From the NCBI RefSeq assembly GCF_001618385.1, contig NZ_BDCR01000004.1, forward strand, positions 682,001-746,000: a stretch of 64,000 bases of DNA. Direction: 5' to 3'. The stretch's first letter is position 1. Each line of letters begins with the position of its first letter. Origin of the DNA: Paludibacter jiangxiensis. Lineage in GTDB: Bacteria; Bacteroidota; Bacteroidia; Bacteroidales; Paludibacteraceae. Below are positions 7,935 through 48,653 of this stretch, in pieces. A model generated the notes under the pieces. It was not told the DNA's origin. It searched no databases and saw only the letters and a program-made list of their open reading frames with translations. Made by a program: the position numbers and the translations under genes.

Positions 7935-9887
7935 CTACTTCTCAATCACCGATCCCCATCCTGCCGGAATAATATTATTTCCACGCATCCAATCCAGAGC
8001 GCTATCCAGACGGTCTGTGTACTTTTGTTTACGTGGATCCCAATTCAAAAAGTCCTGTTTCAATGCCAGATCGTTAATGATTTGCCCCTTTATGATACGA
8101 TTGTTCCAAACGGCATAAAGGGTAGCCACTATTTCGCACTGCTCCCATTTGGCTTTTTTGAAGGTGCTAATAATCGATTCTATCTGCTCTTTTTCGCCCG
8201 AGAACTTTTCTTCAAACAATTCATCGACTGTCGCAACGCCCATCATTTCGTGGTAACGTACATGATTGTCTATTTTGTTTTTCCGGGCATCGTATATGCC
8301 ATACCTTCTGAGTTTCGATTCTATCTCTAATATCAATTCGTCATAAGGCCCGGCTACATTGACTACATATTTCGATTCAAAATCGATTTGGCAGATATAC
8401 TCTACCAGAAACAAGAGCTTCATCATCATCACACGGCCAAAACCATCCGAGTTGAAGCGACGGATAAGGTAAGCCGCCAAAATGGTGCGCTCGCTGATAT
8501 TCGATTTTCGGGTAGCCGACACCGTCTGCAGAACCGGTTCCGCTTTTTTCTCCTCCAACGCCTCCCGCAACACCTGTTGCAGCAGCATTTCATTTTGCTG
8601 TTGACTAGCGCGGATGCTGGCTTCCAGTTCGTCGCAGGTGCGCATTAGCTCGTCAAGCTTGCTGACAATTGCTTGCTGCTCGGAGAGAGGGGGAAGAGGA
8701 GAAATAATATTCTTTAGCTTAGTTCCATTAAAATTTGCTTGACCATTTTGTTGAATAATATGTGGCTCAAGTTGAGATTCTCTACAAAAACTAGAATTTA
8801 TGTAAGAGTTGATGAAATCAACTGAAATCTGTTCAATAAATTGGATACGTATTAAATATGAAGCAAAAGTCATTACTGAATTTTGGCCTTTATATACACC
8901 AGATTTCCCAACTAGCTCCCAACTATTTGTTCTATTGAATAGTAAATCATTATTGAATAGATATAATCTGGGTAAATCTTTAATTGTGTCTTTTACGTAT
9001 TTCAAGTTATCCAAAACAATTTTCCCATTTTGAATATTATTCATTCTTAAAACTGGTATGTTTACTGAGTTTAAGTCTGCCTTTTCAGATGTTCCATATT
9101 CTATGTTATATGCTATCTCCCCCAATCTACACCACGCCCAGCCCTCTGGAATTTCAAAAGGAATTTCATCCTCACCAATCGGTGCTAATTCTTTCTCCTT
9201 TTTTAGTTTTCCATCTTTGATGAGTTGTTTCTTTTCCGCCTTTATCTTCTCCAACAAGGCCTGAGCACTATTTTCCCCTTCTATCAGTTCGGGGTGTGCG
9301 CTGCGGAAGTCGGCTGTGAGCTTGCCCTGCATGGCTTCGCGCAAAAAGGATTGGCGAAGTTGTCTGACAAGATCGAGTTGGTGGGTGAGTTCCGTTGATA
9401 GAGAATCACTTTGCAACTGATTTTTTTTGTATCTATCAATTATTTCTGTCTGTTTATCGTAGTCGGGTAGAGTAACTTCTATCCTGCATAGATCTTCAAA
9501 ACGTAATGCCTGCCTTACTGTGCCTCTGGCATGTTGTTTTATCTGACTTAAACCCTCTGAAGATTTAAGAAACGTTAAAAGTAATTGAGGTAGTACTTTA
9601 TTCGGTTTTACTTTAAATAACACATAAGCAGGACTAATCAAACCTTTAATATCCTCTTCTACATATGCTATCGAACCGACATTTATTCTATAAGGATTAT
9701 ATGCAAAGCAACCCTTTTCAATTATTTTATAGTCATCACCTTTTTCCTCAGCTGCATATTTTGATTCCGTTATTCCTTTTTCATTACTAACTCCTAGAAA
9801 CGGTAAATTTTCAGAACCACCTAGGTCTTTAGCTCTAACAGAGAATGACTCCACCAGCTCTTTTAGTTTATATATGCGGGAACTCAT
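7935..9887 (-). CDS. hsdS: Type I restriction-modification specificity subunit with an extra C-terminal domain
   Basis: HsdS chooses the DNA target of the type I complex. The 650-residue protein has two target-recognition halves: the first about 1-180 ending in the coiled segment LTHQLDLVRQLRQSFLREAM, the second about 245-445 with WAWCRLGEIAY and the helical PLPPLSEQQAIVSKLDELM. The first half begins without the usual leader and is shorter. Residues about 455-650 are not part of normal HsdS (usually 400-480 residues); this extension begins SERTILAAYLIRRF and contains MMMKLLFLVEYI, which resembles Panacea/SocA-like (DUF4065) sequences. Its ATG overlaps the hsdM stop by four bases, so translation is coupled. 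It is the last gene of the operon. Confidence 0.92.
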   Translation of the reverse strand: MSSRIYKLKELVESFSVRAKDLGGSENLPFLGVSNEKGITESKYAAEEKGDDYKIIEKGCFAYNPYRINVGSIAYVEEDIKGLISPAYVLFKVKPNKVLPQLLLTFLKSSEGLSQIKQHARGTVRQALRFEDLCRIEVTLPDYDKQTEIIDRYKKNQLQSDSLSTELTHQLDLVRQLRQSFLREAMQGKLTADFRSAHPELIEGENSAQALLEKIKAEKKQLIKDGKLKKEKELAPIGEDEIPFEIPEGWAWCRLGEIAYNIEYGTSEKADLNSVNIPVLRMNNIQNGKIVLDNLKYVKDTIKDLPRLYLFNNDLLFNRTNSWELVGKSGVYKGQNSVMTFASYLIRIQFIEQISVDFINSYINSSFCRESQLEPHIIQQNGQANFNGTKLKNIISPLPPLSEQQAIVSKLDELMRTCDELEASIRASQQQNEMLLQQVLREALEEKKAEPVLQTVSATRKSNISERTILAAYLIRRFNSDGFGRVMMMKLLFLVEYICQIDFESKYVVNVAGPYDELILEIESKLRRYGIYDARKNKIDNHVRYHEMMGVATVDELFEEKFSGEKEQIESIISTFKKAKWEQCEIVATLYAVWNNRIIKGQIINDLALKQDFLNWDPRKQKYTDRLDSALDWMRGNNIIPAGWGSVIEK

Positions 9888-11320
9888 TTAAGGACCTCCT
9901 TTAATTTAGCCAACAATCCCGCACTTTTCTCAAACGATTTATCCAGCATCTGCATCAGTTCGGCACTACTATATTCAATGGCATCTTCCTGTCGGTTGGG
10001 GTTTTTAATATCCAGGTCGTAGCCCCGTTCTTTCAGGGTATCGATAGATACTTTCCAGCACAGGTCGGATTCCTGGCGGTGGTTCCACCATTTCTTGATG
10101 GGAGCAAACTCTTTGAGTTGTATGGTTTTGGTTTTGCTGTACGATTTTTGTCCTTCGGGCAGGCGGTGTTCGTAGTACCAGACTTCCTTCGTCGGTTCTC
10201 CTTTGGTAAAGAAGAGCAGGTTGGTAGCCACCGTGGCATAGGGCTGAAATACCGAATTAGGCAGGCGGATAATGGTGTGAAGGTTGCAATCTTCGAGCAA
10301 CTTTTGGCGTACCCGCTGTTTAACGCCGTCGCCGGTGAGTGAGCCGTCGGGCAACACAATACCGGCGCGTCCACCCTGTTTCAGCAGGTGTATCATCAGC
10401 ACCAGAAAGAGGTCGGCGCTCTCTTTGGTACGGAAGCTTTGCGGAAAGTTGTTCTCGTTATTGTTGGCCACAATGCCACCAAAGGGCGGGTTGGCCAGTA
10501 TGGCATCCACACGGTGCCGGTTGGTATAATTGCTTAGTGGTTGGTCCAGCGAATCTCGATACGAGATTTTGGGCACTTCAATGTCGTGCAAAATCAGGTT
10601 GGTAGTCGCCAGCAGATAAGGCAGTGGTTTGTATTCCCATCCTATAATATTCTCGGCGATACTTTGGCGCTCTTCCACGCTATTGGCCTGTTTCTTCAAG
10701 TGCTCGATGGCAGCCGTGAGGTAACCACCCGTTCCGCAGCTCGGATCCAAAATCTTTTCGCCCAGTAGCGGATTTACCATTTCGCAGATAAACTCGGTAA
10801 TGGCGCGCGGGGTATAAAACTCCCCGCTCTTGCCCGCGCTTTGCAGTTCCTTGAGAATGGTTTCGTACAACTCACCAAAAGCATGACGGTCTTTGGCTAT
10901 GTTGAAGTCTATCTCATTCAGCTTGTTCAATACCTTGCGGATATTGATGCCGCTTTTCATGTAGTTGTTGTTGCCTTCAAACACCTCGCGTACAATGAGC
11001 GCCCGTTTGTTGCGCAGGTCGTCGGTGCTGTTTACCGGCAGGTTGCGCAGATCCTGAAACAGTTTTCGATCCACAAATTCCTGCAATTCATCACCAGTAA
11101 TTCCCTCGTCATTGCCAGCCCAGGCATCCCAGTGCAGTTCGTCGGGGATAGGACTTGTATAGTTGTCGTTGAGTAGTTCAAGCTCTTTGTCTTTGTCGGA
11201 GAATATTTTGAAAAACAGCATCCATCCCAGCTGTTCGATGCGTTGCGCATCGCCGTTTAGGCCGGTATCCTGCCACATTATCTTGCGGATGCTATCGAGG
11301 GTTCCTTTTAGGTTTGTCAT
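9884..11320 (-). CDS. hsdM: Type I restriction-modification DNA methyltransferase subunit
   Basis: A 478-residue N6-adenine methyltransferase that modifies the host site and forms the core of the complex with HsdS. An N-terminal HsdM helical domain (about 5-135) is followed by the catalytic domain with the SAM-binding motif DPSCGTGGY (192-200) and the catalytic NPPFG (277-281). Length and motifs are normal, so the enzyme looks active. The gene overlaps hsdS by four bases and lies 180 bases after the DUF559 gene; that gap holds one copy of the cassette repeat. It belongs to the hsdR-DUF559-hsdM-hsdS transcription unit. Confidence 0.97.
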   Translation of the reverse strand: MTNLKGTLDSIRKIMWQDTGLNGDAQRIEQLGWMLFFKIFSDKDKELELLNDNYTSPIPDELHWDAWAGNDEGITGDELQEFVDRKLFQDLRNLPVNSTDDLRNKRALIVREVFEGNNNYMKSGINIRKVLNKLNEIDFNIAKDRHAFGELYETILKELQSAGKSGEFYTPRAITEFICEMVNPLLGEKILDPSCGTGGYLTAAIEHLKKQANSVEERQSIAENIIGWEYKPLPYLLATTNLILHDIEVPKISYRDSLDQPLSNYTNRHRVDAILANPPFGGIVANNNENNFPQSFRTKESADLFLVLMIHLLKQGGRAGIVLPDGSLTGDGVKQRVRQKLLEDCNLHTIIRLPNSVFQPYATVATNLLFFTKGEPTKEVWYYEHRLPEGQKSYSKTKTIQLKEFAPIKKWWNHRQESDLCWKVSIDTLKERGYDLDIKNPNRQEDAIEYSSAELMQMLDKSFEKSAGLLAKLKEVLK

Positions 11321-11352
11321 TATTATTGCTTCTTTTTTTTATTCTTTTTTCG

Positions 11353-11514
11353 CCCCTAAATCCCCTGAAGGGGACTTTGGGTAAGTGCGGTTTCAGAGGT
11401 TTGTATCGTTAAGTATGCTTTTTCTTATCTTAATTACGAGAATACTTTTGTATATTTTGCGATCAGAAGTCCCCTTCAGGGGAATCGAAGATCAGCGCAG
11501 CTAATTAGGGGTAG
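11353..11514. repeat. Cassette repeat, copy A (3' side of the DUF559 gene)
   Basis: A stretch of about 160 bp that recurs at 11935-12152 with few changes. It opens with the palindrome TCCCCTGAAGGGGA (11361-11374), continues through an AT-rich middle and closes with the same palindrome reversed (11470-11483) plus the segment ending in CTAATTAGGGGTAG, which covers the last codons and stop of the DUF559 gene. The two outer palindromes can pair with each other, so the transcript could form a long stem. Confidence 0.85.
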
Positions 11515-11893
11515 CCAGCTTAGCAACACCTAAATAACGTTTAATACTATCTACTACCTTTTCAATATCATTCAGAACCTCTTCATTTGTAAACCGGATA
11601 ACGGTTAATCCCCATTTTTCCAGTTCCGCAGTTCTTCCATCGTCGTATGCTTGTTGATATTCGTGAATACCTCCATCTATTTCAATCACTAATTTGAATT
11701 TGTGACAATAAAAATCAGCAACAAAAATATCAATCGGATGTTGTGCCTTAAAACGGACTCCCAACTGGGATTTATTCAGATTTTCCCAAAGTTTTGTTTC
11801 TGCCGGAGTCATATTTTTTCGTAATAACTCAGCATTCTGAAATATAGTACGCTTTGCACCATAAAACATTGCGGGTTGTTCGGTTCGTTGCAT
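11501..11893 (-). CDS. DUF559 endonuclease-like protein
   Basis: A 130-residue protein of the DUF559 family, related to very-short-patch-repair-type and other PD-(D/E)XK nucleases. Visible are the N-terminal helix MTPAETKLWENL, the QHPIDIFVADFYCHKFKLVIEIDGGIHE core with the expected acidic residues (Asp of ADFYC, Glu and Asp of VIEIDG) and the closing VIRFTNEEVLNDIEKV. The motifs are intact, so it may cut DNA, but no role is established for the family. It lies between hsdR and hsdM, which normally adjoin, and is flanked by direct copies of a palindrome-bearing repeat, so it was probably inserted into an existing operon. Confidence 0.88.
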   Translation of the reverse strand: MQRTEQPAMFYGAKRTIFQNAELLRKNMTPAETKLWENLNKSQLGVRFKAQHPIDIFVADFYCHKFKLVIEIDGGIHEYQQAYDDGRTAELEKWGLTVIRFTNEEVLNDIEKVVDSIKRYLGVAKLATPN

Positions 11894-11934
11894 GGCTTTA
11901 TTTTTCTCGTCTTACTTTTCGCTCTTTTTTCTGT

Positions 11935-12152
11935 CCCTAAATCCCCTGAAGGGGACTTTGGGTAAGTGCGGTTTAGGAGGTTTGTATCGTTAAGTATGCT
12001 TTTTTCTTATCTTAATAGCACGAGAATATCTTTATATATCTTGCGATCAAAAGTCCCCTTCAGGGGATTTAGGGGCAGATTTAGTTCTTGCGTTTTTCGA
12101 TCAGAAGTCCCCTTCAGGGGACTCGAAGATCAGCGCAGCTAATTATGGGTAG
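11935..12152. repeat. Cassette repeat, copy B (5' side of the DUF559 gene)
   Basis: Second copy of the repeat at 11353-11514. It has the same opening palindrome (11942-11955) and AT-rich middle, but its right end is longer by about 54 bases because the reversed palindrome occurs twice (12054-12067 and 12108-12121). It ends in CTAATTATGGGTAG, nearly the same as the DUF559 stop region in copy A, as if the tail of a second, lost DUF559 gene remained here. It fills the 315-base gap between hsdR and the DUF559 gene. Confidence 0.85.
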
Positions 12153-12208: not shown

Positions 12209-14656
12209 CTACCCTATACTCTGATACAATTCCTTTTCCAACTCTTTTATGGCTCTCATATAATTGGCTTTACTACCAAATTCATTGATAATTTCCACCG
12301 GCGAACCATATTCGGTAAAGGGTTGTACCCGCAAAACATCCATGTTTTCGATATTGGTAATTCCTTCGTCGGCATATTTATCTAATAAAGCTTCCAGTAC
12401 TTTACGGGCTTGTTCGCCGTATTTTGCAAAGTAGTTGCGCTTCTTTACATTATTGGCTCTTTCTTTACGCGTTAATGGCGGCTGCCCGTAAGCTACGTGG
12501 CATATCAGATCGAACAAATCAACCTCTTTGTTTACCGCATTTTCGAGTGCTTCTACCATCACCCCCTGCTCTTCCAGCTCCTGAACAAGGATTTCTTTTT
12601 TGTCTGCACTATTCCATGATTTCAAAAAGTCATCGAGCGATGCATAGCGTCCCATAACAACTTCGCGGGTATAATCCTTCAGACTAACAGTAATAGGTTT
12701 GCCATTGTTATCGAAATACAACTCGCGACTTATCAAAGCAGACACGTCGACTCCATTAACATACACTTTAGTCTTGCGGATGGGAGTATCCCACATAGTT
12801 TTGTCCTCATCTTCCGGCTCCGGGTATCTGACAACCGGATTGATTACAATTTCTTCTCCCGTTTCTTCATCTTCAATTGAAGCATGATCATTCTCTTCTT
12901 CGCTAATAATATCAGTTAAATCGGCATTTCCTGAAACAGGTTTTACGCGTATCGGATCACCGTCAAACTCTTTATCAGCAAACAAATCGGTTACGTTACG
13001 AAAATCAAGGATGGTAAAATATAGCTTATTGAATTCTTCATTAATGCGCGTACCACGTCCGATTATCTGCTTGAATTTGGTCATGGATTTAATTTCGGCA
13101 TCCAGCACAATTACTTTGCAGGTTTGAGCATCAACACCTGTGGTCATTAATTCTGACGTAGTTGCAATCACCGGATAGCGTTCTTCAGGGTTGATAAAAT
13201 TATCCAGCTCCCGTTTACCTTCGTCATTATCGCCGGTAATCTGCATGACATACTTATAATTATCGGCAGCCAAATCGGCATTGCAATTGGCAATAGCCGT
13301 TCGCATACGGTTAGCATGGTCAATATCGGTACAGAACACAATCGTTTTGGCAAAGCGATCGTAGCCATTCAGAAACTCCGTCAATTTTTGAGCAACAACT
13401 TGGGTACGCTCATCTATAACGAGATTTTTATCAAAGTCTTTACGGTTATAGATGCGGTCTTCCACCATATCTCCGTCTTTATCGGTTTTGCCCTTTTCGG
13501 GGCGCCATCCTTCGGCATCGACATTGATCGTAACCCTTACAACCCGATAAGGAGCCAAAAAACCATCGTCGATGCCCTGTTTTAATGAATAAGTATAAAC
13601 GGGATCGCCAAAATACTCGCTATTGGATACTTCACTGGTCTCTTTAGGAGTAGCAGTCAAACCGATATGAGTAGCTTTATTGAAATAGGTTAAGATTTCA
13701 TGCCAGGCACTATTCTCTTTTGCACTTCCACGATGACACTCATCAATAACAATCAAATCGAAAAATTCCCGGGAAAATTGCTTATAGGCATTCGCCTCTT
13801 CGTCAGCTCCTGATAACCCTTGATACAATGCCAGATATACTTCGTAGCTTTTATCTATCATTCGGTTTTTTACAACCGTCATTTTATCCTTGAAATGTTT
13901 GAAATCACCCCGCTTTGTCTGGTCAATCAGTGCATTACGATCGGCCAGAAACAAAATACGCTTTTTTGCTCCGCTTTTCCATAGTCGGTGTATAATCTGA
14001 AAAGCCGTGTATGTTTTGCCTGTACCGGTTGCCATTACGAGCAAAATGCGGGGCTGTCCATTCGCAATAGCTTCTACCGTACGATTAACGGCAATTTGCT
14101 GGTAGTAACGAGGACTACGTCCGCTACCATCAAAGAAATAGGTTTGTGAAGCAACTTTTTCGGCTTCGGGAGTATTAATGCCTTTGTATTGTTTGTACTT
14201 TTTCCACAACTGTTCGGGTGAAGGAAAGCTATTGTTATCAAGAACTGTTTCAATGTTTCCATCCGTCGCGGTTCGGTCGTGGAAGAGAAAACCACTTCCA
14301 TTGCTGCTAAACACACAAGGTATATCCAAAATTTGGGCATAATCTAACGCTTGTTGTATGCCATCTCGAATGGAATGTTTATTGTCCTTTGCTTCTATAA
14401 TCGCAATGGGTATATTGGGCTTGTAATAAAGGATATAGTCAGCCCGCTTTTTTGCACCACGAGCCGTAAGTTTACCACGTACATAGATTTTCCCATCAGT
14501 AAAACTGACTTCTTCAAGCATTTGGGTATTTCTATCCCAACCGGCATTCTCTATAGCAGGCGTAATAATTTTTGTACAAATATCTCTTTCTGAAAGTGAT
14601 TTAAGATTAAGCATTACCATTGCATTAGAATATTTACTTAGGGAATCAATTTTCAA
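12209..14656 (-). CDS. hsdR: Type I restriction endonuclease subunit R (DEAD-box translocase/nuclease)
   Basis: The 815-residue motor and nuclease of the type I system. The nuclease domain (about 20-150) shows Asp73 and Glu88-x-Lys90 in the RADYILYY...IAIIEAK stretch. A superfamily 2 helicase follows: Walker A ATGTGKT (209-215), DECH box (305-308), the GLTATP motif and a C-terminal helicase half with QIIGRGTRI. All catalytic parts are present. The start is not certain: the first Met at 14656 is kept, but Met13 or Met15 (14620 or 14614) are possible. It is the first gene of the restriction operon. A weak AATATTTG about 95 bases upstream is the best promoter guess. Confidence 0.95.
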   Translation of the reverse strand: MKIDSLSKYSNAMVMLNLKSLSERDICTKIITPAIENAGWDRNTQMLEEVSFTDGKIYVRGKLTARGAKKRADYILYYKPNIPIAIIEAKDNKHSIRDGIQQALDYAQILDIPCVFSSNGSGFLFHDRTATDGNIETVLDNNSFPSPEQLWKKYKQYKGINTPEAEKVASQTYFFDGSGRSPRYYQQIAVNRTVEAIANGQPRILLVMATGTGKTYTAFQIIHRLWKSGAKKRILFLADRNALIDQTKRGDFKHFKDKMTVVKNRMIDKSYEVYLALYQGLSGADEEANAYKQFSREFFDLIVIDECHRGSAKENSAWHEILTYFNKATHIGLTATPKETSEVSNSEYFGDPVYTYSLKQGIDDGFLAPYRVVRVTINVDAEGWRPEKGKTDKDGDMVEDRIYNRKDFDKNLVIDERTQVVAQKLTEFLNGYDRFAKTIVFCTDIDHANRMRTAIANCNADLAADNYKYVMQITGDNDEGKRELDNFINPEERYPVIATTSELMTTGVDAQTCKVIVLDAEIKSMTKFKQIIGRGTRINEEFNKLYFTILDFRNVTDLFADKEFDGDPIRVKPVSGNADLTDIISEEENDHASIEDEETGEEIVINPVVRYPEPEDEDKTMWDTPIRKTKVYVNGVDVSALISRELYFDNNGKPITVSLKDYTREVVMGRYASLDDFLKSWNSADKKEILVQELEEQGVMVEALENAVNKEVDLFDLICHVAYGQPPLTRKERANNVKKRNYFAKYGEQARKVLEALLDKYADEGITNIENMDVLRVQPFTEYGSPVEIINEFGSKANYMRAIKELEKELYQSIG

Positions 14657-47309: not shown

Positions 47310-48653
47310 ATGGGAAACATCAGCATTAACATTGACAAAACCTTTGGATTTATCTCCAAAGAGGCTGTTTCGGGCTACGAAGCAGCAGTAAAAGCAAGCA
47401 ATGCTGCTTTACATGCCGGAACCGGCAAAGGAAATGACTTCTTGGGTTGGCTCAACCTACCCTCGTCAACGACAGCAGAACATCTGGCTGACATCGAAGC
47501 CACTGCCAAAATCCTAATCGACAACTGCGAAGTAGTGGTTGTGGTAGGTATCGGCGGCAGCTACCTCGGAGCAAAAGCCGTGATCGATGCTCTTTCCAAC
47601 AGTTTCGACTGGTTGCAAACCGAACGTAAATATCCGGTAATCGTTTATGCCGGTCAAAACATCGGCGAAGATTACCTCTTCGAATTGCAATCGTTCCTGA
47701 AAACAAAAAAATTCGGTATCATTTCCATCTCGAAATCGGGAACCACGACCGAACCTGCTCTGGCTTTCCGCCTGTTGAAATCACAATTGGAAGCACAACA
47801 AGGCAAAGAAGCTGCTAAAAAACTGATTGTTGCTATCACAGATAAAGCCCGTGGCGCGTTGCGTACATTAGCTACACAGGAAGGTTACAAAACATTCATC
47901 ATTGAAGACAATATCGGGGGTCGTTACTCATTCCTGACACCGGTTGGTTTGTTACCAATCGCTACTGCCGGTTTCGACATCAAACAATTAGTTGCCGGTG
48001 CTGCCGACATGGAAAAGATAGCCGGTATGGATACTCCGTTTGCGGAAAATCCGGCTGCCATCTACGCTGCAACACGTAACGAACTCTACAAAAACGGCAA
48101 GAAGATCGAAATTCTGGTGAACTTTCACCCGAAACTTCACTTTGTTGCTGAATGGTGGAAACAGCTCTACGGTGAAAGCGAAGGCAAAGAAAACAAAGGC
48201 ATTTTCCCTGCTGCTGTCGACTTCACTACAGATCTTCACTCTATGGGTCAATGGATTCAGGAAGGCGAACGCACTATTTTCGAAACTGTTATCTCGGTAA
48301 AAGAACCGAACCACAGCGTTAGTGTTCCTTCTGACGATGCAAACCTTGACGGCTTGAACTTCCTCGTTGGCAAAAGCGTTGATCAGGTAAATAAAATGGC
48401 AGAACTGGGTACCATGTTGGCTCACGTTGACGGTGGTGTTCCCAATATCAAAATTGAATTGCCTAAGCTCGATGAGTACAACCTCGGACAATTGCTCTAT
48501 TTCTTCGAAAAAGCATGCGGTATCAGCGGTTATGTTCTCGGTGTGAATCCGTTCGACCAACCGGGCGTTGAAGCATACAAAAAGAATATGTTTGCACTGC
48601 TCGACAAACCGGGCTACGAAGCCGAAAGCAAAGCGATTAAAGCAAAATTATAA
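47310..48653 (+). CDS. pgi: Glucose-6-phosphate isomerase
   Basis: A 447-residue glycolytic enzyme that interconverts glucose 6-phosphate and fructose 6-phosphate. It has the two SIS domains: [19 protein letters not shown], the [17 protein letters not shown] phosphate-binding loop, and VTGGRYSF-like [14 protein letters not shown]; catalytic Glu lies in [16 protein letters not shown]. The short form (about 450 rather than 550 residues) is the type of Gram-positives and Bacteroidetes. Third gene of the lysS unit. Confidence 0.97.

Follow-up and report, generated by a model that had tools for sequence, protein, structure and literature searches.

Why does a small DUF559 gene stand between hsdR and hsdM of a type I restriction operon, with palindromic repeats on both sides of it? 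We think that the gene and the repeats are probably parts of a selfish mobile unit, which would consist of a Vsr/EDxHD-like DUF559 nuclease gene and hairpin palindromic ends, and which has REPIN-like mini-elements made of the ends only. The existence of a mobile unit of DUF559 and palindromic ends is well supported by the comparison of sequences. That the nuclease itself drives the movement of the unit is the best inference from the same material, and this includes the cutting and the transposition.

The DUF559 gene and its palindromic blocks

The window is the whole 64-kb stretch of DNA that was analysed. The operon lies on its minus strand in the order hsdR, DUF559, hsdM, hsdS, and the features of the locus are:

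7935-9887, minus strand: hsdS of the host operon
9884-11320, minus strand: hsdM, on one side of the insertion site
11345-11514: block A, which follows DUF559 and precedes hsdM; an inverted pair of REPIN-like form
11361-11374: hairpin palindrome TCCCCTGAAGGGGA, hsdM-side end of block A (G000:C4:693361-693374)
11470-11483: hairpin palindrome, DUF559-side end of block A
11501-11893, minus strand: DUF559 endonuclease-like gene, 130 aa (PF04480, E 6.4e-34; 3hrl and 3r3p by sequence and fold)
11926-12152: block B, between hsdR and DUF559, a direct repeat of block A with an extra hairpin end (12093-12152)
11942-11955: hairpin palindrome, DUF559-side end of block B
12054-12067: hairpin palindrome, middle of block B
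12108-12121: hairpin palindrome, extra end of block B on the hsdR side
12209-14656, minus strand: hsdR of EcoAI/FtnUII type, on the other side of the insertion site

The first-pass annotation of this DNA had described a DUF559 gene that parts hsdR from hsdM, with near-identical blocks on both sides, and this is borne out. The protein scores 116.6 bits against PF04480, with a curated cut-off of 20.6, and the paired segments of the blocks are 90-95% identical (11345-11423 and 11926-12004, 94%; 11436-11483 and 12020-12067, 90%; 11455-11514 and 12093-12152, 95%). The 48-nt end is present in three copies with spacings of 584 and 54, block B having one more hairpin end. Each block is an inverted pair of palindromic ends with a spacer of about 90 nt, for instance in block B, where the arms 11930-11959 and 12050-12079 are 97% complementary. 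The palindrome of the window has a stem of 6 plus a mismatch. The pattern CCCCTNNAGGGG occurs five times in the window, all within 11362-12120, that is in blocks A and B, where 0.02 would be expected, and none of 100 shuffles of the window reached that count. The two outer ends of the window copy read GGGTAG; the eight ends found by pattern at loci of the same genome varied, with GTAG once, and the ends of the in-frame copies described below differ.

The last codons of the DUF559 gene and its TAG stop lie within the end of block A. Block B was earlier read as a tandem unit that had kept the surroundings of a DUF559 stop codon and lost its gene. The sequence around the stop codon is indeed present (from 12131), but the lost gene is not supported and was dropped as an explanation, since the same type of element end is found without a whole DUF559 nearby, at G000:C4:59509-59559 and at more than ten places in the genomes G078 and G114. 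This part of block B is therefore an element end of the kind in which the stop of the gene lies, and no proof of a lost gene. In the search for intron RNA, the window gave only two tRNAs, and no intron was found around DUF559. In HsdS (650 aa, 7935-9887) the C-terminal part of about 200 aa past the specificity domain has no Pfam match at E 0.001.

The hsdR-hsdM junction in relatives

The hsd operons within the genus (8 genomes) have at most 52% HsdM identity, and empty junctions were therefore taken from other families of the order, in the ten closest HsdM relatives (77-85% identity). The genes hsdR and hsdM are directly joined in four of them (G398, G334, G205, G226), which confirms the expectation that junctions without the cassette exist; the statement that the two genes usually adjoin holds for these four but not for the other six, which carry other cargo. 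A tblastn search with the window DUF559 found it at this junction in none of the ten. The cargo genes, named by eye from the translations (L152-L161), are GIY-YIG-like, four-helix, ATPase-like, RhuM-like and others. The direct junctions and the varied cargo mean that there are junctions without the cassette and that inserts in general can land here; going by gene content, the junction is a hot spot for various small genes. Palindromic GGGAC/GTCCC repeats stand beside the four-helix gene of L134.

Palindromes and DUF559 across genomes

The genome of the window (3.66 Mb in 4 contigs) has two PF04480 matches and 40 occurrences of CCCCTNNAGGGG, against 0 for the reversed pattern. Its second DUF559 gene, at C4:809257-809565, likewise stands between direct copies of a palindromic pair, and there is no hsd gene among the ORFs within 1.5 kb of it. 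Isolated palindromes and gene-free inverted pairs are found at other places. At C3 (about 48045-48313) a mini-element is followed by just the first part of a DUF559 gene, where the genus member G078 has a whole DUF559 between two mini-elements; from its sequence, this is a decayed DUF559 copy. One part of the neighbourhood of the second DUF559 gene (L108:4617-4902, contig C4) matches dozens of other places in the genus, and its repeat pieces of about 120-140 bp belong to a different dispersed repeat family, which lacks the C/G palindrome.

The family survey covered 120 genomes, 57 of them with a PF04480 match; matches of at least 60 bits were regarded as strong, which gave 84 matches in 43 genomes. 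The pattern CCCCTNNAGGGG has a median of 11 and a mean of 34.4 in these 43 genomes, compared with a median of 0 and a mean of 1.6 in the 77 genomes without strong DUF559, and the reversed-pattern control gives 0.9 and 0.5. At least five occurrences are found in 27 of the 43 and in 8 of the 77 genomes (Mann-Whitney p 6e-10, Spearman 0.59; the genomes are related and p is thus not that of independent samples). The link is not complete in either direction: the pattern is absent from nine of the 43, and two genomes without strong DUF559 are rich in it, G114 with 32 occurrences and G023 with 16, G114 having no PF04480 match at all.

A search of named genomes with a profile built from six window-type proteins gave 111 relatives, of which the best 80, all Bacteroidota by title, were kept. 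The first-pass annotation had proposed to look for the palindromic block beside DUF559 genes at unrelated loci, and the same kind of block is there at many. Among these best 80 of the 111, 52 have CCCCTNNAGGGG within 400 bp of DUF559, and its density is 2.34/kb in the flanks (144 in 61.6 kb) compared with 0.069/kb more than 1 kb away (29 in 420.8 kb). Grouped by common flanking genes, the 80 loci form 47 neighbourhood clusters, a number in which the singletons are inflated by short contigs; the largest cluster has 15 loci, whose one common neighbourhood may be inherited. No relative of the window hsdM or hsdR was found in the flanks, taken up to 4 kb, of any of the 80. Direct repeats on both sides, searched for without N stretches, exceed the 99% control level at 43 of the 67 testable loci and in the window (3 of 269 controls were above), which makes the bracketed layout a trait of the window-type DUF559 group; 19 of the 67 exceed the highest control, and 24 of the 67 testable named loci have no direct repeat above the control level.

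In the phylum as a whole, DUF559 was found at E 1e-12 in at least 163 of the 395 genomes. Frames of at least 350 aa make up 47 of 150 among the phylum matches listed, and the hosts at phylum loci again include LeuS and a B12 enzyme (by eye MetH), with palindromes around the DUF559 domain. Relatives were also found in 3 phage and 36 plasmid records, and ten records were inspected. The cyanobacterial loci L352-L354 have C/G-run hairpins on both sides, in L352 and L353 of the form AAATCCCC(C)..GGGG(G)ACTT, hairpins of the AGCTCCCCC type stand on both sides in L357, and the phage record L356 has a mix. The hairpins are on one side only in L355, L359 and L360, and none of this type was found in L358 and L361. 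Control windows with hairpins were 5/7 for L355, 3/6 for L359, 3/7 for L356, 2/7 for L354 and 1/7 for L358, and there were none for the other five. Five of the loci (L352, L353, L354, L360 and L361) are from cyanobacterial plasmids. In two of L352-L354 the hairpins have the AAATCCCC..GGGGACTT form that is also seen in Bacteroidota, and in L352, L354, L360 and L361 the DUF559 gene adjoins DUF1156 or PglX methylase genes.

DUF559 in frame inside larger proteins

The window copy is intergenic, unlike a large part of the family: 41 of the 84 strong matches lie in open frames of more than 200 aa, and the remaining 43 are solo genes. The host proteins were named by sequence motif, and a Pfam check of ten of the 41 agreed and added an Eco57I-type methylase. 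Eleven sites in nine proteins account for 38 of the 41 cases, with LeuS 9, IleS 6 (three sites), MetH 5, ValS 5, PurL, UvrA, a SpoIID protein and DegT-type aminotransferases 3 each, and PrmC 1. LeuS, IleS, ValS, PurL, UvrA, MetH or PrmC is the host in 32 of the 41. The flanking palindromes are translated as peptide, e.g. PPKSPKGDLGG, and typical ends are AGCCCCCTAAATCCCCCnnAGGGGGACTT with its inverse or CTCCCCTAACCCCTCTCCnnGGAGAGGGG with its inverse. As far as sequences can tell, no other evidence for mobility is as strong as these in-frame insertions inside essential genes, which the first-pass annotation had not foreseen.

Both sides have a hairpin scoring at least 17 within 250 bp in 33 of the 41 in-frame cases and 23 of the 43 solo genes, with such a hairpin in 223 of 1029 single control windows (22%); 20 of the 43 solo genes are without one on at least one side. 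This scored test replaced a stricter one with perfect stems of 7, which missed the window's own palindrome and which was positive on both sides for 16 of the 41 copies in frame and for 12 of the 43 solo genes (control windows 56 of 1040). Compared as inverted repeats, the left and right 200-nt flanks of the 41 in-frame cases have a median score of 22, and 36 displaced controls have a median of 8 and a maximum of 11.5. The inverted match beats the direct one in 36 of the 41, and just 13 of the 41 left ends find their best partner in their own right end. Inverted and direct matches win 18 times each in 40 solo genes, a tie that is expected where a whole mini-element sits on each side. The moving unit had been proposed to be the gene plus a palindromic 3' segment. 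This has to be revised, as the clearest cases show the gene between two hairpin-bearing ends.

At two loci where a large frame contains DUF559, L074 and L097 (by Pfam an Eco57I-type methylase), the left palindrome is present two or three times in tandem, and this arrangement suggests repeated insertion at the same end. In genus g20, six genomes have a near-identical solo DUF559 (L022, L024, L025, L027, L028, L031) without C/G-run palindromes on both sides, two having one on the right; this is perhaps a settled, domesticated copy. Inteins and introns were considered and rejected: no Hint domain was found in ten host proteins at E 1e-8, and no Rfam match to group I/II introns at gathering score in six loci.

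Signs of movement

The ileS gene of the draft genome G042 has DUF559 at two sites, in copies that are 97% identical in amino acids. Two contigs each hold a part of the gene. Their ends overlap, but at the outermost part the frame is not the same, so that a single gene is likely, not certain. The two copies are alike from CAGACCCCCC to GGGGGnTCTG and unrelated beyond these points, and the ends of the unit are thus revealed. Within the genus of the window, one of eight genomes (G060) has an ileS insert and seven are empty; compared with G000, G114 and G078, the insert replaces a native 11-residue loop and does not split it. At ileS sites 1, 2 and 3 there are short inserts without nuclease but with similar ends in other genomes (G024, G072). 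No target-site duplication was evident at the few sites compared, the two G042 copies and the IleS of G060.

The in-frame DUF559 domains group by host site, with 15 changes on the tree compared with a mean of 26.7 and a minimum of 24 in 200 shuffles, and not by genome, with 32 changes (mean 32.0 and minimum 30 in the shuffles); the tree rests on few columns, and many of its forks are open. Such grouping, which is read from the sequences, would suit site-bound homing lineages, and also vertical descent. Among 17 pairs of sequences (13 embedded, 4 solo), dS was computable in 13 (10 embedded, 3 solo). Their dN/dS is 0.05-0.20, with dS above 1 in eight, which is purifying selection, and the nuclease thus seems to be kept working inside the host proteins.

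The nuclease

Residues that are invariant in 27 diverse members of the family include E32, D60, E71, D73 and H77. The family profile matches the structures 3hrl (E 3.7e-33) and 3r3p, the homing endonuclease I-Bth0305I (E 3.3e-7), and the window protein alone matches 3r3p at E 0.018. A single-sequence AlphaFold model of the window protein was discarded (pLDDT 44), and a model from a 32-sequence alignment (pLDDT 81) was used for the fold search. Foldseek gave the same two best structures, 3hrl at E 2e-6 and 3r3p at E 3.1e-4, and Vsr (1cw0) was weaker at E 0.1. The best PADLOC model is "homing endonuclease" (E 2.2e-5). The likeness to homing endonucleases that was suspected from the start has thus been strengthened by both profile and predicted fold. 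I-Bth0305I is described as an example of the EDxHD family (PMC3943268).

Alternative explanations

The palindromes could be ordinary REP or MITE elements moved by another enzyme, with DUF559 as a passenger or as a gene that merely tolerates them. REPs with RAYT transposases are known, REPs are reported inside genes of several species (PMC3733652), and G114 and G023 have their many palindromes without strong DUF559. We nevertheless consider this unlikely: presence of DUF559 is strongly linked with palindrome number over the 120 genomes, the domain stands between two inverted ends in most in-frame cases, and the two G042 copies with the same ends both carry it. Slightly less probable still is that DUF559 is an accessory defence nuclease, carried as cargo by the type I restriction operon with the repeats incidental. 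The other cargo genes at the junction in six of the ten relatives would fit, as would the DUF1156 and PglX genes beside the cyanobacterial relatives, but DUF559 itself is at that junction in none of the ten, the 80 nearest DUF559 loci are without relatives of the window hsdM or hsdR in their flanks of up to 4 kb, both copies in the window's genome are flanked by palindromes with no hsd gene among the ORFs within 1.5 kb of the second, and the best PADLOC match is a homing-endonuclease model.

A housekeeping role as a Vsr-like mismatch-repair endonuclease, with the palindromes as terminators or regulatory hairpins, has some precedent in the Caulobacter DUF559 protein VsrA, for which repair at methylated sites is proposed (PMC12907096), and in the weak structural match to Vsr. 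The patchy presence and the multiple copies per genome are unlike a fixed repair gene, however, and the residence in frame in unrelated enzymes and the paired inverted ends speak against it as well, so that we regard this role as improbable. Finally, it is very improbable that the in-frame cases are domain fusions kept for the function of the host, with no insertion of a mobile unit. Purifying selection on the embedded domains, and several domains at the same site in different genera, could be explained in that way, but eleven labelled sites in nine different proteins with the same kind of bracketing hairpins could hardly be, and there are empty orthologues in close relatives (IleS, seven of eight genus members) and nuclease-free inserts at the same IleS sites.

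How the unit may move, and what it resembles

In our hypothesis the palindromic ends, or a resident mini-element, are what the nuclease would recognise and cut, and repair would then copy the nuclease-bearing unit in, as in homing. Mini-elements could be left behind by internal deletion. Within genes, survival would be limited to copies that are in frame and in tolerant loops, and an essential host gene would shield the insert from sloppy deletion. The window copy could be a unit that landed in the hsdR-hsdM junction, which takes varied cargo in relatives.

Free-standing or intron-borne EDxHD homing endonucleases (I-Bth0305I, 3r3p) are like the DUF559 unit in their nuclease domain, which is homologous by profile and fold, and in that the gene is lodged in conserved genes with lineages grouped by site; unlike them, the unit has ends that are REP-like hairpins, and no intron or intein was found with it. 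Inteins with a homing endonuclease share with it a nuclease domain translated inside essential host proteins, but the ten DUF559 hosts have no Hint domain and the palindromic ends are read as host protein. With REPs and REPINs and their RAYT (TnpA_REP) the unit has in common the dispersed hairpin palindromes in inverted pairs, here as short-spacer pairs in the blocks of the window and at isolated loci of its genome, the gene-free pairs elsewhere, and a gene flanked by palindromes. The element end supplies a stop codon, which REPs also do, and REPs are found inside genes, including uvrA and tRNA synthetase genes (both from PMC3733652). The gene between the palindromes is however a PF04480 gene and not an HUH (Y1) transposase, many copies are inside genes, and the outer letters do not seem to be a constant GTAG, whereas the REP tag is defined as constant GTAG (or CGTC) in the same paper (PMC3733652). 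Rickettsia palindromic elements are likewise palindromic units translated in frame in conserved proteins (PMC2229807, PMC10969869). Inserts of that kind are seen in 41 of the 84 family copies and in the short inserts, but the Rickettsia elements, at 105-146 bp, are too short for a DUF559 gene, while the full DUF559 units encode a nuclease and have hosts in Bacteroidota and perhaps beyond.

It is a tentative idea, with somewhat less than an even chance in our judgement, that this is a new class of autonomous element, in which an EDxHD homing-type nuclease would act on its own hairpin ends, insert in frame into essential proteins, remain there without splicing as a translated and functional internal domain, and leave non-autonomous REPIN-like mini-elements. 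We found no link between DUF559 and palindromes in the open-access literature, a search mostly without subscription papers, and this is no proof of novelty.

Since 2000 it has been known that proteins can contain small palindromic repeats inserted in frame. The ends on either side of the nuclease gene are of the kind seen in these repeats, and the related copies, scattered even in essential proteins, look like an undescribed kind of jumping gene. A review of in-frame palindromic repeats leaves to future work how they are mobilised (PMC2229807), and this becomes directly testable with full sites, empty sites and nuclease-free short-insert sites in one family. If our explanation is true, DUF559 gains a biology, that of a selfish gene which persists within enzymes such as leucyl- and isoleucyl-tRNA synthetase as an internal domain translated with them, and many "domain fusions" in the annotation of Bacteroidota would be insertions. 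Should the unit also be a new class of element, its nuclease would fill the place of the enzyme so far missing for the protein-coding palindromic repeats of several phyla.
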